A stretch of 64,000 nt of DNA, taken from Haliotis asinina (lineage: Eukaryota > Mollusca > Gastropoda > Lepetellida > Haliotidae). Made by a program: the position numbers and the translations under genes. Under the pieces are notes generated by a model. The model made no database searches. It was not told the DNA's origin and worked only from the letters and a program-made list of their open reading frames with translations. Shown here piece after piece: positions 32,501 to 41,300 of the stretch; position 1 is the stretch's first letter, and each line of letters begins with the position of its first letter. Where the stretch lies: assembly GCF_037392515.1 (NCBI RefSeq), contig NC_090280.1:28153118-28217117 (forward strand), read 5' to 3'.

Positions 32501-35287
32501 ACTAACATGCACTGTTTAGAGTTGCCTCCCTAAGGTATGTCACAAACAGTGATCATATGTTAAAACAGCAGAGAGGTGGTGGAGTTGCCTAGAGCTTAAT
32601 GCCAAAGACCTGGGTTCAGTTTCAAACATGAGTGAAGCTCATTTCTGATGTCTCCTGTTGTGATATTGCTGGAGTATAGCTAAACCATTCTCACTCTTTC
32701 AAACCTCAGATTTGCTTTCGGTAATTTTTCCATGATACTGGGATGGGTATCAGAAACTGATCATAGTGTTAGGATGATCATCACTCCCATATGTTAACAC
32801 AGTGAGTTAGTGAGTATGGTTTTACACTGCTTTTAGCAGTATTCGAGCAATATCACGGTGGGGGACACCAGAAATGGGCTTCACACATTGTATCCATGTG
32901 GGGAATTGAATCCAGGCCTTTGTCACAAAGAGCAAACACTTTAACCACTAGACTACCTCACAAGCTCATAGCTATCTTAAGACTATGAAAGTAGCTTAGT
33001 GCAATGGGACCCTGGTTCCTTGCTGTGAAACTGGACTTGTTTTTCTTGGAGCAAGGAATGTTGTTTAGGGTGTTCCAAGAGAATTCCATGACCACTTTTG
33101 CTGTATGTCTGCAGGATGCTAATGGTGGGATCTGGAGGCTGGACCTGTCTTTCTCACACACATCCCAAGCTCCTGAGAAGCTTATGACGTATCATGCTGG
33201 CCCCATCACTGACTGTAGCACCTCCCCCATCACACACCTCACAGCAACCATTGGTGTGGACAGTAAGTATACTGGCTGCTCAGTCAGAATGACATCATCA
33301 CACCTCCCCCATCACACACCTCACAGTTGCCATTGGCGTGGACAGAAGGTAGTCCAAATATGAGCCCCAAGTGTTCATGCTCCACAAGCCAACAACACAA
33401 CGATATGCACTTGTTCCACTGATTGTGAGAGGTGTTGTGAATCACCAAATATTTGCTACTTCATATGATTGTTTTTTATGTAACACACTCAAATGCATCG
33501 AAGAACAGTGTGTGAAAAGATCACACTGTGGACTGAAATCGTCAAAAGGTACGTTTCTGTATGTAAAAACATAACAGGGGTAAACATATGTAGTACCATT
33601 TCTAATGACCCTTCAGCACAGCTAATTCTTATCACCTTAATACTACCCCATCACAAATCTCCCCACCAACATATTGATGTATACGGGTATGAGGCTGTCT
33701 CTATTGAACACATGCCCCTTGGATTGCATTGTAATAACTGCCTGCATGGATGTGAGTTGAAGAGATCCGGAGAAGTTTTTAATAGTGCTATGGTGCTGTG
33801 TCTCCCAGTGTATCAGCTATTTTACTGTGTGTGTTTCAGACACTGTGCGTGTGTTTGACTATGTCCAGCAGAAGCAGGTGTGTGAAGGACGCTACACTGC
33901 CAGCGGAAGCTGCATCCTGTGGACCCCTCAGATAGTATGTATTCATCTGCCAGCTGAAATGGAATCTGATCAGCTTGTTAAAAAGTCGGCCTGTGAAGAT
34001 CCGGTTTAGAATTGATCTTCAGTAACCCATGCTTATTGTAAGAGGCGACTAATGGGATCAGGTGGTCAGGCTTGCTGACTTGGTTTGCACATGTCACAGC
34101 ATTGTAACTGTGTAGGTCAATGCTCATGATGTTGATCACTGGATTGTCTGGTCCATGCTCGATAGCTGGAATATTTCTGAGGGCGGCGTGAAACTAAACT
34201 CAATGTTTAGAAGTCCCTGTCAGGATGGACCAGTTTAAGGACCTATTTACCAAGCCTGGACATTAACACTTTAAACAATCAATTCTCCTCCAGCTGATGA
34301 CTACTTGGGGGACGCACAGGTCTGTTTGTAGCTGCTGCTTGACCATTCTGTGCCTGCTTTCACATCGAACATTCTGATGGTCCTACTGAATTCCACATCC
34401 TGATAGAACTATGGTACTGTGTGTTTTACTTTGAAGTACGGTATCTCAAGTAGTGCTGACTTCCACAACTGGTCATGTTGTCTATCCCCAGGTTGACACC
34501 AAGGGAAGCATGTTAGTGGCAGGATTTGAGGACGGAGTGGTCAGAGTACTGACCGTCAACAAACTTCCTGAACCGGCTCGACATCGAGGCAAGACAGATG
34601 AGTGTGAGCTGGCTCTCAAACAGGTGTTCAAGCCCCACAAGACCACAGTGACAGCGCTGGCCATAGACAGCAAGGGGGAGATTCTTGCTTCAGGGGTAGG
34701 TGCTCAAAAGGAAGAAACATGAGGTTAACTCTGAATTGTTCAAGGTGGAATTATTTTAGCACTTTTAGATTTCAATATTTATGTATGTGGCATATGACAT
34801 GACTACTGTTTGTGTTGCCAGGGTGCTTATTACATATGTGCTCTCTATGTAGCATACTAAATTAATGTGGCATATGTATAGGAGAAAAAACGCCTCCGAA
34901 GTTTTGGTAGAGAATGTAAACCTGAGGGGTAGGGAAATCCCGAGGGGCGTAGCCCCGAGGGATTTCCCGACCCCCGAAGGTTTACATTCTCTACCAAAAC
35001 TGAGGAGAAGTTTTTTCTCTTGCTTATAAACCGTCATTTTAAATATTGCGTTATAAGGAATTAGGACCTCACTATACCGCGAACATTCGGAATGACAGCA
35101 ATGTCGCAACTCTAATGCACAAGTTAGAAAACGCACGGGATTTTCACGCAGTGCACGTGTTTTTTGTGAGTGAGTCAGTTATATACCACGTGGTTACTTG
35201 AATCCGCTCATTGCTAACCATGGCAAACCAGAGCGAAGACGAAATGTTTTTAACACAGTCGCAGTTTAAGAAAGATGATGACAATGC

Positions 35288-35344
<57 letters not shown>

Positions 35345-38300
35345 GTTCCGTTTCGCGGCACCTTTGACTGAGGAAGATATTGAAAGGAAATTATCTCGAT
35401 GTGTTCCAAGAACGACAAGGTACAAAAATGATTGGGCGAAAGGAGTATTCAGGCGATGGCAAGAAGAGCGTCGGACGAGGTCAATGGATGCAAACATCGC
35501 GCTGTCGTCGTCCGTCTTGACTGAAGACTTGCTGGATATGACTGCTAAAGATATAAATACAGCCCTAAAGTATTTCCTATTCGAGGCGAGGAAAGTGGAC
35601 GGGACTTGCTACCCAGCTGTTACTGTGTATGGGCTATTCACGGCAATAGCGTCACACTTGAAAGCTAACAAATCTCCTTACAATCTGATGGAAGGCGAAG
35701 AGTTCCAGGACAGCAGACAGGCACTGGACGCATGCATGCGTGAGAGGTCCACAGCTGGTCTTGGAGCAGACGTGAGAAAACCTACAGAGGTGATAACTCG
35801 AGACGAGGAGAACACTCTGTGGGAGAAGGGGGCTCTTGGAGAAGGCACGCCGCAAAAACTCCTGGACACAGTCCTCTACTTAACTGGTGAGTTGCATTTT
35901 GCATTTGATTTCCCTGTCGAAAAGTCGGATATTAGCAATTTTGGTATTTACAATCAAACCTTCACATCGAAAATAAATGTGATTAACTGGAACAAAATGC
36001 CCGACTTCACTTTGAGGCAAACCAAACCAAACAAAGTTTGGATGGATATTTTGAATCCCGTGTTAAGACCAAAATAGATAAACATTATATAATTGTGTAC
36101 GGAATTTTATTTTCCAGGACTTAACTTCGCCTTGAGAGGTGGAAAGGAACATCGGAGTTTAAGACTACACCAACAACCTCAGATTACAGGCCCACATACA
36201 GACCAGAACGGCCGCAGGTACCTGCAGTATGTGGAAGACGTCTCTAAGACAAATGCCGGGGGAGTGAAAGACAGGAAACTGCAGAAGAAAAAGGTGCGAG
36301 CGTATGAAAATACCAAGAACCCGGAACGATGTTATGTGCGCCTTTTCATGAAGTACAAGTCACTTTGGTATGTATTAGATGTTTTCTGATACATTTCTGA
36401 TACATGTTATACATTCTTTAGATATACCACTCATTTAATCACATCATGCGGGTGACTTGACCCATACTGCATGTAAATTGTCTTATAATTTTACTCCCTG
36501 ATGATGATTGCACGCATTGGTTTAGGGGCATATAAATGACAAATGCAAACATTTCATACTTAATTGATTCTATGTCAACACAATTTAACTTTCCAGCCTA
36601 CCATCTTCAACTCGAGCAAATGCGTTTTACTTCACCCCGATGAAGAAACCTAAGGATGGAAAATGGTACCTAGAGTCGCCCATGGGCCACAACACAATCC
36701 AGACAACGGTGAAGAGAATATGTGCTGAAGCCGGAATTGAAGGAAGGAAAACGAACCACTCGCTCAGATGCACTGCTGCTACCCGTCTCTACGAGGCAAA
36801 CATAAGCGAGCAACAGATTTGTGAACAAACTGGTATGTAACTCAATGAATATCTGCAAAACACGAATGAAACTTGAAGTGACTGGGCCAAATTCCAATTT
36901 GGCGATTTTAAATGCTAGAACTTGTGATGTCAACATGTGTTATGGTTAACATGCCAAGATCCGGGTTCGAATCCCAATGATGGCCCCAAGCAAAGCGATT
37001 ACAATATCATATAAATTGCTTTTCAAACGGTTATGTACAATTTGAAATGACTTATCAAGATGAATTCTTTTATTGTAGGTCACAAAAGCGAGGCAGTGAG
37101 GGTTTACAAGAGAACCAGTGATCAACAACAAGCAATGGCGTCAGATGTTCTCTCATGTTCAGCTCCAAAGAAAACTCAGACGTCTGCGACAGTGTCGGTT
37201 CCTACTTCAGAGGGAGATTCCGGTACAACACAAACTGTCGCTCACGGAAGTGTTACAATGACGTTCAATTTCAATTAAAACACTGTTGTCAGAGTTTTTG
37301 TTTTTCCTTTCCTGTGAATGCAGATTTCGGTGGCTGATCGCTCCAAACCGGTACTTTCGGGACGAGGGTTTACTCCTAGTAAAACCTGGGAATAGGTTTT
37401 ACTTAAATCTAGTTAAACCTATTCCCAGGTTTTACATTGGGAGTAAAACCTCTTACCGGGTATTGGTGCAAGTAGAAAGGATAATGACCATTAAAGGCAG
37501 TGATCAGAATTAGGTTTATAAGACATGACAACTGTTTGTGTTGCCAGGGTGCTAATTACATATGTGTTCTCAATGTAGCATACTAAAGTAATGTCTGAAA
37601 TAGAAAAAAAATGTCTTTTTGCATTTGTATCTACATAAGTCCTAAGTGATTTATTTCAACCAGACCATGACTTTATGCAAATTAGTTTGTGATGATATTG
37701 TATTGCAAATGACACTAATTAAAAGATCATTCTAAAACTTAACTTACCTTCATTATTAATGGTAGCTGGTGCAAAATTTAATAACTTTAATACTGAAACT
37801 ATTAAGGATGCAGCTGCCAAGGAGTCTCACTATCACTGTAAAAGGAAACAGGTAGGAGGGATCGTCTTAAATGATGTGTCAGGACAGGGTGTCACAGATG
37901 GTGGTTGGGGTCCGACTGGGGAATAGAGAGATCAGCTAAAATGTGATAAACCTTCAGGGGAATTAAGCTGGGGAAGTACACTTTTGGTCAGAACAATTTG
38001 CAAATAATATCCAGCCCAATCGATCTTCTGGTGGTCATGCCACCTTTGAATTTTGAGACATTTTATAAGATGGCTGAATTAAGCTTTTCTATAGGTATTG
38101 TACACATTTACGTATCTAAACATAGACCTCATGAAAAAAGATGCATAACATGTTAATCAAGAGATGAGACATATTCAACCACATGGAAAGGCATACTATA
38201 TCTCTGAGATGGACCCATGTGCCTGTAGGCAGCACATGCATTTCATGCTAGCTGAGTTGATGGTTCGTCGTCATACCTGGCTGGGTGATCTTATTGCCAA

Positions 38301-41300
38301 CTATGGTCTGATCTACTGTTTTCAGCAGCTATTCATATTTTTTGAAAGTTTTGTCTGATTTTATAAGTAAACATGCTTTTCTAGATATCCTACTGCACAT
38401 CCCACTGAATGCCGAGCTAGGCCAATGTGGGTTATTTTGATGTTTTGCTGTTTGCAGTTGTGTAAATTTTAGGGATACAGACTAGCAGCCAAACAACATT
38501 TTTTTTCTATTTCCGACACTACTGAAATAGATTACTAATGTTTGTGTTGACAGGCTGCTGATTACGTTTGCATTCTTTATGTAGCATACTAGATGACTAC
38601 TGTTTGTGTTGCCAGGGTGCTGACAACACTGTGTTCTTCATGAACTTTGGGAACAAAGAGCTGGAGCCGATTGGCTATGTCCCTGTCCCAGCGCCAGTGC
38701 GCAGCATGCAGTGGTCACCAGACAAGTTTGTGAGTACACAAATCCAGTCCCTTTAACTGTACATCCATCAACTCCCTTAAATTGTACATTCATCTAGTCC
38801 CTTTAACTGTCCATCCGTCTAGTCCCTTTTAACTGTACATCCATCAACTCCCTTAAATTGTACATTCATCTAGTCCCTTTAACTGTCCATCCATCCAACC
38901 CCATTAACTGTACATCCATCAAGTCCCTTTAACTGTACATCCATCAACTCCCTTAAATTGTACATTCATCTAGTCCCTTTAACTGTACATCCATCCAACC
39001 CCTTTAACTGTACATCCATCAAGTCTCTTTAACTGTACATCCATCAACTCCCTTAAATTGTACATTCATCTAGTCCCTTTAACTGTCCATCCATCCAACC
39101 CCTTTAACTGTACATCCATTAAGTCCCGTTAACTGTACATCCATCTAGTCCTGATGGAGAAGATTAAAACATTCTTTATGTCCTGGGGGGTTGTTTAACT
39201 TGCTCTGCTGTTCTGGTTGCAGAACAAGACAACACTGCTGGTGTTCTGTGAGGAGGGCAAGGTGGTGGAGATCCAGGCTCCGGAACCGGGCAAGTTTGAC
39301 ACGTCTCACTCCTACCACATTACTGGACTCCAGATGAAGACATTCACCTTCCGCAGCATCAAGTCCAGGCTTCGGGTGAGAAGACAGCAGCCTCCGTTCT
39401 TGGAAAAAACTGCATTATCACTTTTTTCATGTCATCATGATGTTGAGTGTGAGTCTTGCAGAACATTGACCAAAACCCAAACTGGGGTATGGTGAGTGAA
39501 CTGTTTTAGGCACGTGGCTAGTGATCCAGCATGTTTAAGGTGCTGGGATGGTGTCCACCAGTCAGCTTTGTGTGCAGACTCTTTCAGTGTTGTCACAACC
39601 CCTAGTGTACAGCACACAACCCTGTGCGCTTAGAAGAACTCACAAATTTGTTGGTAACTGACTAGATGGTGGCCACATGACTAAACAAACTCCTAGTTGT
39701 TGGTACAAGAATGTGCAGTAAAACTTGGAGAAAGTATAATGACTATATGTTCACTCAGCTGTGAATATGTACCTTCTAAGGAGGGGAAAACCACATTAAC
39801 TCTGTACACCTAGTTACTCCACAGGTTGCATTATGCCCAGGGAGTTGAGATTAAAAATATGATGTTCTGATGAGATTGACATCCAAAGATTGAAGGAAAC
39901 AAAGCACTTTGAGTATGTGTGTAGATAGGATTGACAATAGAGCTATGTAAATACACATGTAATAATAGTAAAAATGTTAAACTCAGTTCAAACTGAAATC
40001 CTGTTCCAACTGATATGAACACCAACTCATTGTTCCTGCAGCATGAAGAGGAGATGGAGAGGAAGCGCATTGAGGAAGAGGCTCGCAAGAAGAAGGAGGA
40101 AGAAGAGAGACGGAGGAGGATAGAGCGAGGACTAGAGACAGAATCTGAACATGGGGACGAAGAAGGTAGGTGTCCCGAGAGTACTCAGTATTGATGGCAG
40201 ATCATAGGGTTCAGCATCAGTTGTTCATGATAGTATCAAAGCAGCAAGAAGGACATTATACTTTATGGATGACAACTTCTCTATTATATTATCACATCTT
40301 TTCAGGTTGTTAATGCCTAGGGTGGTGGAGTAGCCTAGTGGTTAAAGTGTTGGCTTATCACACTGAAGACCTGGTTCAATTCCGCACAGGGGTACTATGT
40401 GGGAAGTGTCTCCTGGCATGATATTGCTGGAATATGATGTTGCTAAATAAGGTGCATAGAAACCATTCTCACTTACAGTTGTTAATACCTTTCATGCCTA
40501 CCATCATGCTGTCTTTGATAATTGCTGTTACTTGTATTTGTCTGTTTTGGACTGTTGTATTTCGCTATTGCTTGACAAGGGTGTATGAATCTAACATCAT
40601 ATTATAACAGAGAAGTTGTCATCCACAAAGTATCAGCCTTTCTTGTTACTAATGAGTGGTGGTGGGGTAGCCTCATGGTCAAAGTGTTTGGTCATCATGC
40701 TGAATTGTCATGGGATCGATGCCCCACATATGAAGCTCATTTCTGGTGTCCCATCATGATATTGTTTGAAGGTTGCTGAAAGCTTCATAAAACCATACTC
40801 ACTCACATAGTCACTATTACTAATCAACTTGTAAAATTTCAGTTGAACAGATCATTCAGAACAGTGTTTGCTTGTATTGAATTTGCTATATTTGCTGCCC
40901 ACATTCTGATGATGACTGATTAATGGGGTCACAATTCCTATGATGGTTTTGAAAGGGTACATGAAACATTAAAATGATCAATAGAAAGGGGCGAGGGATG
41001 ATGTTTGAGATGACGTTGGGTGTCTCTGTGTGTGTGAATAATGACCATGTGTGACTTGATCTTCACAGAGGAAGAAACAAAGCCTGTTGAAGAAGAATGG
41101 CATCCTTACATCCCGGATGTCCCCAGTCCTATAATGCAAGGCTTCTATTCCCAGGAGGGCTACTTCTGGTTGTCTATGGTAGGTCATGTCTATAAACACT
41201 TCAGTACATCTTGGATGTTCCCATCCCCATAATGCAAGGCTTCTATTCCCAGGAGGGCTACTTCTGGTTGTCTATGGTAGGTCATGTCTATAAACACTTC

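Follow-up and report, generated by a model that had tools for sequence, protein, structure and literature searches.

The window analysed here, a stretch of 64,000 nucleotides from the abalone Haliotis asinina (RefSeq assembly GCF_037392515.1, contig NC_090280.1, positions 28,153,118 to 28,217,117), holds a mobile element that encodes a tyrosine recombinase (YR). We are highly confident that it is a young, probably still active DNA transposon of the Crypton type, in which a palindrome at one end carries an inverted copy of the element's own joined ends. The analysis establishes that this YR transposon is young and that the layout of its ends suits those same ends once joined. The recombinase is the only gene of the element that is recognised by its domain matches.

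The initial annotation had proposed an intact, four-exon tyrosine recombinase of the Crypton type, and the reading frame, the GT/AG sites, the named catalytic residues and a DUF3504 match all agree with that proposal. The open reading frame runs through four exons with GT and AG at every boundary (phases 1, 2 and 1) and encodes 450 amino acids followed by a stop codon. We infer that the gene is spliced in this way from the joined frame and from the GT/AG sites, which are kept in 19 of 19 aligned copies. R229, H360, R363, H386 and Y394 are all present, and the R-H-R-Y tetrad is complete. The Pfam families matched by the protein are DUF3504 (3.7e-34), the QRICH1 domain (4.9e-12), Phage_integrase (1.1e-10) and DUF3435 only; the QRICH1 domain precedes DUF3504, and the Phage_integrase match lies at the end. 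By sequence, the nearest solved structure is that of QRICH1 (1e-8), and the integron integrase IntI4 is a weak match (8.9e-4). A Pfam scan of the recombinase and seven other frames found no match to a reverse transcriptase or DDE transposase in the element. Those seven further frames, of 64 to 154 amino acids in or across the element, have no Pfam match. At gathering scores there is no Rfam match within positions 34500 to 38000, and searches of viral contigs and of other genome contigs confirmed no prokaryotic or viral relatives of the element. The poly-Ala and poly-Asp run had been considered unusual. The run is present, but its length differs among the aligned copies (A4-13, D1-13), and it is an unstable coding microsatellite.

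The interval first reported, 35220 to 37278, does contain the gene, but it overlooked the element ends; the mobile unit is larger. Twenty loci of the family to which the element belongs, here called family A, were fetched, and their likeness to the window ends sharply at positions 34876 and 37521 (Table 1).

Table 1. Positions in the window of the family A element and its parts
Feature	Position	Strand	Basis
Target trinucleotide TAT, left flank	34873..34875	+	TAT or TAA in 23 of 28 left flanks
Whole mobile element, 2646 bp, GTATAGGAG...AGGTTTATAA	34876..37521	+	Edges of likeness in 19 copies; exact empty sites
6-nt spacer GTATAG at left end (spacer of joined ends)	34876..34881	+	End comparison
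Left-end imperfect palindrome; hairpin -60 kcal/mol, z -13.8	34882..35019		Folding
Internal complementary region: inverted copy of right end plus left end, 4-nt spacer	35010..35035	-	End comparison, folding
Exon 1 of recombinase	35220..35886	+	Joined reading frame
Coding microsatellite (GCT)8(GAT)10, poly-Ala/poly-Asp	35286..35339	+	Within exon 1; copy comparison
Exon 2 of recombinase	36118..36367	+	Joined reading frame
Exon 3 of recombinase (H360, R363)	36597..36832	+	Joined reading frame
Exon 4 of recombinase (H386, Y394) and stop	37079..37278	+	Joined reading frame
Second palindrome near right end; in 19 of 19 aligned copies	37358..37458		Folding, alignment
Right-end box GGTTTATAA pairing with internal copy	37513..37521	+	Predicted pairing

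The genome searched comprises 1.143 Gb. Among the best 150 of 748 candidates from an integrase-domain search, which were scored, about 80 rows by hand count are exon 3, with nearly equal scores, on contigs C1 to C16. A DNA search in which 40 copies were scored gave 33, the window's included, that are full length at 98-100%; five others lack part of the left palindrome, and the last two are shortened or in pieces. Searching with the right end returned at least 100 candidates, and all 40 of those scored are identical over 192 bases. Roughly, we estimate the copy number in the genome at about 100.

An alignment of the window element with 18 copies (L010 and L019, incomplete in the fetched stretch, were excluded) has a mean pairwise substitution divergence of 0.0030, with a median of 0.0020 and a maximum of 0.0126, figures that take in the microsatellite and palindrome columns. 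Frames are open in 16 of the 19 copies, including L015 with its internal deletion; L017 and L028 are frameshifted and L024 lacks a start codon. Because the aligned copies retain their splice sites, and hence their introns, the element moves as DNA. Recent transposition and domestication as a host gene had both been suggested for the recombinase, with a search for copies as the way to distinguish them. This search found many near-identical, dispersed copies with exact insertion sites, most of the fetched ones having open frames, which decides in favour of transposition.

Three empty sites show that insertion is exact, with no target duplication and no bases lost. In one case (L010/L029), a copy has entered another copy of the same family, and GAGTGGTAT and ATCTAAAG, adjacent in the uninterrupted sequence, stand immediately to either side of the inserted element. 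The window copy interrupts a tandem intron unit, whose uninterrupted sister unit reads CATAT followed directly by GACATGAC. L020, which lies within a tandem repeat, has the same exact insertion without duplication. Such insertion fits a tyrosine recombinase and not a DDE transposase. The last three target bases in 28 left flanks are TAT in 13 and TAA in 10, with A at -2 in 27, T at -3 in 24 and A or T at -1 in all 28. Right flanks (n = 30) are unconstrained at +1 and have a weak bias for A or T at +2 (26 of 30), A at +5 (16) and G at +6 (16). The TAW at the left flank and the TAA at the element's right end may amount to a short direct repeat.

The most distinctive feature of the element lies at its left end. 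Past the inner arm, the left palindrome runs on into GGTTTATAAG, read in reverse; this sequence consists of the right end and one further base. The inner foot (35010 to 35035) is therefore an inverted copy of the two ends as they would be joined in a circle. This internal copy is retained in all 27 fetched family A loci whose sequence extends to the left end; they come from 30 records, of which 3 are repeats. No inverted terminal repeats were found in family A when the left 40 nt were compared with the right 40 nt. Five copies (L011, L012, L013, L017 and L020) have left palindromes in which one arm is rewritten from the other, the centre is inverted or part is lost, and such changes suggest hairpin or snap-back copying.

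Other DUF3504 loci of the same genome, among them families B, C, D, F, H and I, were fetched to test whether this arrangement could be due to chance. The rule, that the palindrome carries an internal inverted copy of the element's own joined ends, holds in six of the seven families examined that have an end palindrome. The ends of families A, B, D and F were set by copies with different flanks. Family B (L030-L039), which has no blastn hit to the window element, starts with GTATACGTTAGC and ends with GTGGTGTAA, and the inner foot of its palindrome reads GTGGTGTAAGTAGGTTAGC in reverse; the foot is retained in 9 of 10 loci. Family D (L045-L048) has its palindrome on the opposite side of the gene and follows the rule in the three copies with both ends, and in family F (L049-L051) three sites that differ in their flanks follow it as well. 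In family C, the right end TTTGTTTTAA was predicted from the inner foot and then found downstream of the gene in four of the five loci first examined (L040-L043), and also in L052 and L053. In L044 the sole match to the predicted end is weaker and lies upstream of the left end. Since family C copies share flanks, this end is not proven by divergent sites. The family C loci (L040-L044, L052 and L053) are carried together with their flanks in larger duplications. Family I is a single locus (L056), the foot of which points to TCATGGTTTAA, present once in the locus and on the expected side; the internal copy guided the recognition of this far end, which is not a blind prediction.

The specificity of the end rule was assessed by comparing 12 ungapped bases of the right end with the internal copies of the six families. 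Each right end matches its own internal copy at 9 (A), 11 (B), 12 (C), 10 (D), 12 (F) or 11 (I) of 12 positions. Matches to the copies of other families are 3-8 of 12, except between C and F (11 each way) and between A and D's copy (9). No other 12-mers of B, C, F or I reach the family's value, and shuffled inner feet attained the observed right-end match in 3 of 5,000 trials for A and 1 of 5,000 for B. On the side of the left box, own matches are 10-11 and are the best in the row except in family C. In all six families, the boxes are 6 nt apart where the ends are joined and 4 nt apart in the internal copy. When the joined ends of one copy per family were folded as a single DNA strand, 9-15 of the last 16 bases were predicted to pair with the internal copy, and some bases close to the joint stayed unpaired. 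In six of six cases, the largest folding gain for a left end came from the right end of its own family (-7.9 to -14.6 kcal/mol); other right ends gave 0 to -5.4 kcal/mol, except the C/F combinations (-8.6 and -9.3).

Several observations weigh against this account of the element. The right end of family A fits its own copy and that of D equally well (9 of 12). The family's value is also attained by two further 12-mers within element A and by one within D, and the left end of C agrees more closely with F's copy (11) than with its own (10). Families C and F are related, leaving fewer than six independent cases and, in the folding test, at most five. The internal copy is missing from four of the seven family C loci (L042, L043, L052 and L053); these loci were duplicated together with their flanks and need not have moved. 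In family H (L054 and L055), which has a terminal palindrome, no sequence on the expected side corresponded to the predicted far end, and the sole match contains errors and lies on the wrong side in L055. Because family H copies diverge inside the coding frame, the far end may have been lost. Beside the gene, DUF3504 loci L057 and L058 have no such palindrome, and L002 has a weak one.

Further points concern the window's own family. Five family A copies are without 101 bp of the stem and retain both feet, so the full stem may be unneeded. The three of these collapsed copies that were read nearly in full have no common diagnostic base, and the deletion falls between 8-bp direct repeats; the collapsed copies may therefore be products of recurrent slippage or else form one mobile, stem-less variant. 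The aligned copies were picked by an open exon 3, a choice that biases the sample toward intact copies and inflates their count. The coding changes among them, 20 non-synonymous and 5 synonymous against a site ratio of 3.5, are about neutral and too few for a selection test based on the ratio of non-synonymous to synonymous substitution rates (dN/dS). Functional readings of the internal copy are drawn only from predicted folding.

The movement of the element can be framed as a probable series of recombination steps. The recombinase would cut at a fixed point between the right box (ending in TAA) and the 6-nt spacer GTATAG, the excised element would become a circle with joined ends, and the circle would insert by exchange at a TAW target. 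Less certainly, the substrate may be one strand folded on itself, in which the joined ends pair with the internal copy and, much as in an integron attC site, a 2-nt bulge adjoins the exchange point. We put forward tentatively, on the basis of the modelled folds, that the element recombines as such a folded single strand, an attC-like hairpin of which one strand is exchanged by the recombinase. About as likely is that the internal copy is a double-stranded accessory site, a plausible though not compelling explanation under which both boxes would be bound as duplex, the 4-nt spacer would block exchange and the palindrome stem would be a mere linker; such a site would aid synapsis or hold the enzyme back. 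Consistent with an accessory site, six of six families preserve the two boxes with a shortened spacer between them, and the five copies that lack most of the stem retain their feet. Moreover, tyrosine recombinases typically use sites with spacers of 6-8 bp (PMC3212892; here and below, the cited papers are represented by excerpts). An accessory site leaves unexplained, however, the long palindromic stem in the six families with the copy and the foot-to-foot placing of copy and ends in the hairpin.

The arm conversions, inverted centre and partial losses in the five altered palindromes would also be compatible with a functionless by-product of fold-back copying, in which the joined ends were inversely copied once and arm conversion has since maintained the likeness. 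This is unlikely, for in six families the copy corresponds to both ends, including the one at a distance of 2.3-2.9 kb, and its spacer is 2 nt shorter every time; conversion between palindrome arms would be unable to update the part that corresponds to the far end. Even less probable is an RNA-copied relative of DIRS elements that lacks reverse transcriptase and forms its circle on the internal complementary region as template. DIRS elements do have internal complementary regions, a circle of joined ends and no target duplication (PMC3266345), and the genome holds recombinase loci that are DIRS-like by eye, with a long RNase H-like frame adjoining. Yet introns are present in 19 of 19 copies, the scanned frames have no reverse transcriptase match, family A has no inverted terminal repeats, and the recombinases of L003 (DIRS-like by eye) and L006 match only PF00589 and not DUF3504. 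Domestication as a host gene, with which the open frame and intact catalytic residues would agree, is rejected because of the copy number, the low divergence and the shared edges of about 100 dispersed copies, and we give it almost no credence. In addition, vertebrate domesticated DUF3504 genes have lost the catalytic tyrosine (PMC3212892).

Among known elements, family A can be compared with CryptonA as characterised in the available text of Kojima and Jurka 2011 (PMC3212892). Both are DNA transposons with a YR gene only, a DUF3504-type recombinase and the full tetrad, and both have no inverted terminal repeats and no target duplication; a short TAW/TAA match at the ends may be a further point in common. 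Family A differs in its approximately 100 near-identical copies, since Crypton copy numbers are given there as very low in most hosts, medaka excepted. It differs also in its long terminal palindrome with the inverted joined-end copy. Animal Cryptons are reported in that text without terminal repeats, a negative description and not a requirement, and fungal Cryptons with direct repeats of 4 or 6 bp at the ends (PMC3212892). A second source likewise gives Cryptons short direct repeats only and a generally low copy number (PMC8969392). The family A recombinase belongs to the same domain family as the domesticated DUF3504 genes QRICH1, ZMYM2-4, KIAA1958, KCTD1 and WOC. Unlike the recombinase, those conserved genes have lost catalytic residues and are not multicopy (according to the same portions of PMC3212892).

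With DIRS1-like retrotransposons, as covered by the excerpts of PMC3266345, the element shares a region complementary to both ends, the absence of target duplication and a junction of about 3 bp. In family A, by contrast, no reverse transcriptase was found, inverted terminal repeats are absent, introns are retained, and the complementary region sits at the foot of the end palindrome. Integron attC sites have the layout right box, spacer, left box, stem, left box', right box'. The predicted folded strand of the joined ends has the same order of boxes, spacers and stem (compare PMC9345347, in part), and would also share unpaired bases near the exchange point and a stem that varies in length and sequence. 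The resemblance is one of layout only, predicted from one copy of each of six families. In the literature searched, mostly open-access and without Repbase and taking in Cryptons of molluscs and of Haliotis, the portions available contain no description of a palindrome, hairpin, attC-like or internal complementary end design in Cryptons. Specifically, no folding end design is described in the available parts of PMC3212892, PMC3627910, PMC4157794, PMC9345347, PMC3266345, PMC8969392, PMC6681497 and PMC9004415.

The boundaries of Cryptons are described as hard to characterise for want of terminal repeats (excerpts of PMC3212892). With the end rule, both ends can be located from sequence alone, also where an element is known from one copy: the right end of family C was predicted by it, and it pointed the way to the right end of family I, a single locus. 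Family A, being young, intact and present in many copies, lends itself to direct tests of Crypton movement. Tyrosine-recombinase retroelements have been suggested to originate from a Crypton and a long terminal repeat (LTR) element (PMC4157794 and PMC6681497, both in part), and an end design common to a DNA-only element and DIRS retroelements bears on this origin. If the folded-strand mechanism is correct, animals would possess an integron-style mode of recombination, and the internal complementary region of DIRS elements would trace back to a DNA transposon.

The exons that flank the element on both sides match CFAP44 (cilia- and flagella-associated protein 44; 7.8e-25), in accord with the earlier suggestion of nesting in a ciliary gene intron, and the recombinase gene lies in sense orientation on the same strand as the host exons. 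This CFAP44 intron contains several near-copies of a unit of about 80 bp, at 34792-34868, 37522-37594, 38531-38594 and 38580-38621, and the unit takes in the 3' end of the intron itself together with the first bases of the exon. The near-copies could possibly act as decoy splice acceptors. A 77-bp repeat that flanks the element (D1) was considered as a target duplication and rejected, because the flanking units differ by 8% and the element copies by 0.3%, and because two more stretches related to D1 lie at 38531-38621. The tandem units were in the intron before the element inserted.

Other DUF3504 and integrase-domain loci were noted during the genome searches. The strongest integrase-domain match among the best 150 of 748 candidates, L001, is on contig C132, far down the contig list, and may be foreign DNA. 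Contig C15 has at least 13 DUF3504 matches between 44.16 and 44.49 Mb, in open frames of 486-904 amino acids and in both orientations, perhaps a host gene cluster born from Cryptons. On contig C4, DUF3504 matches in 203-amino-acid frames occur at 13.10, 13.34, 13.60 and 13.85 Mb, and their spacing of about 250 kb suggests large segmental repeats.

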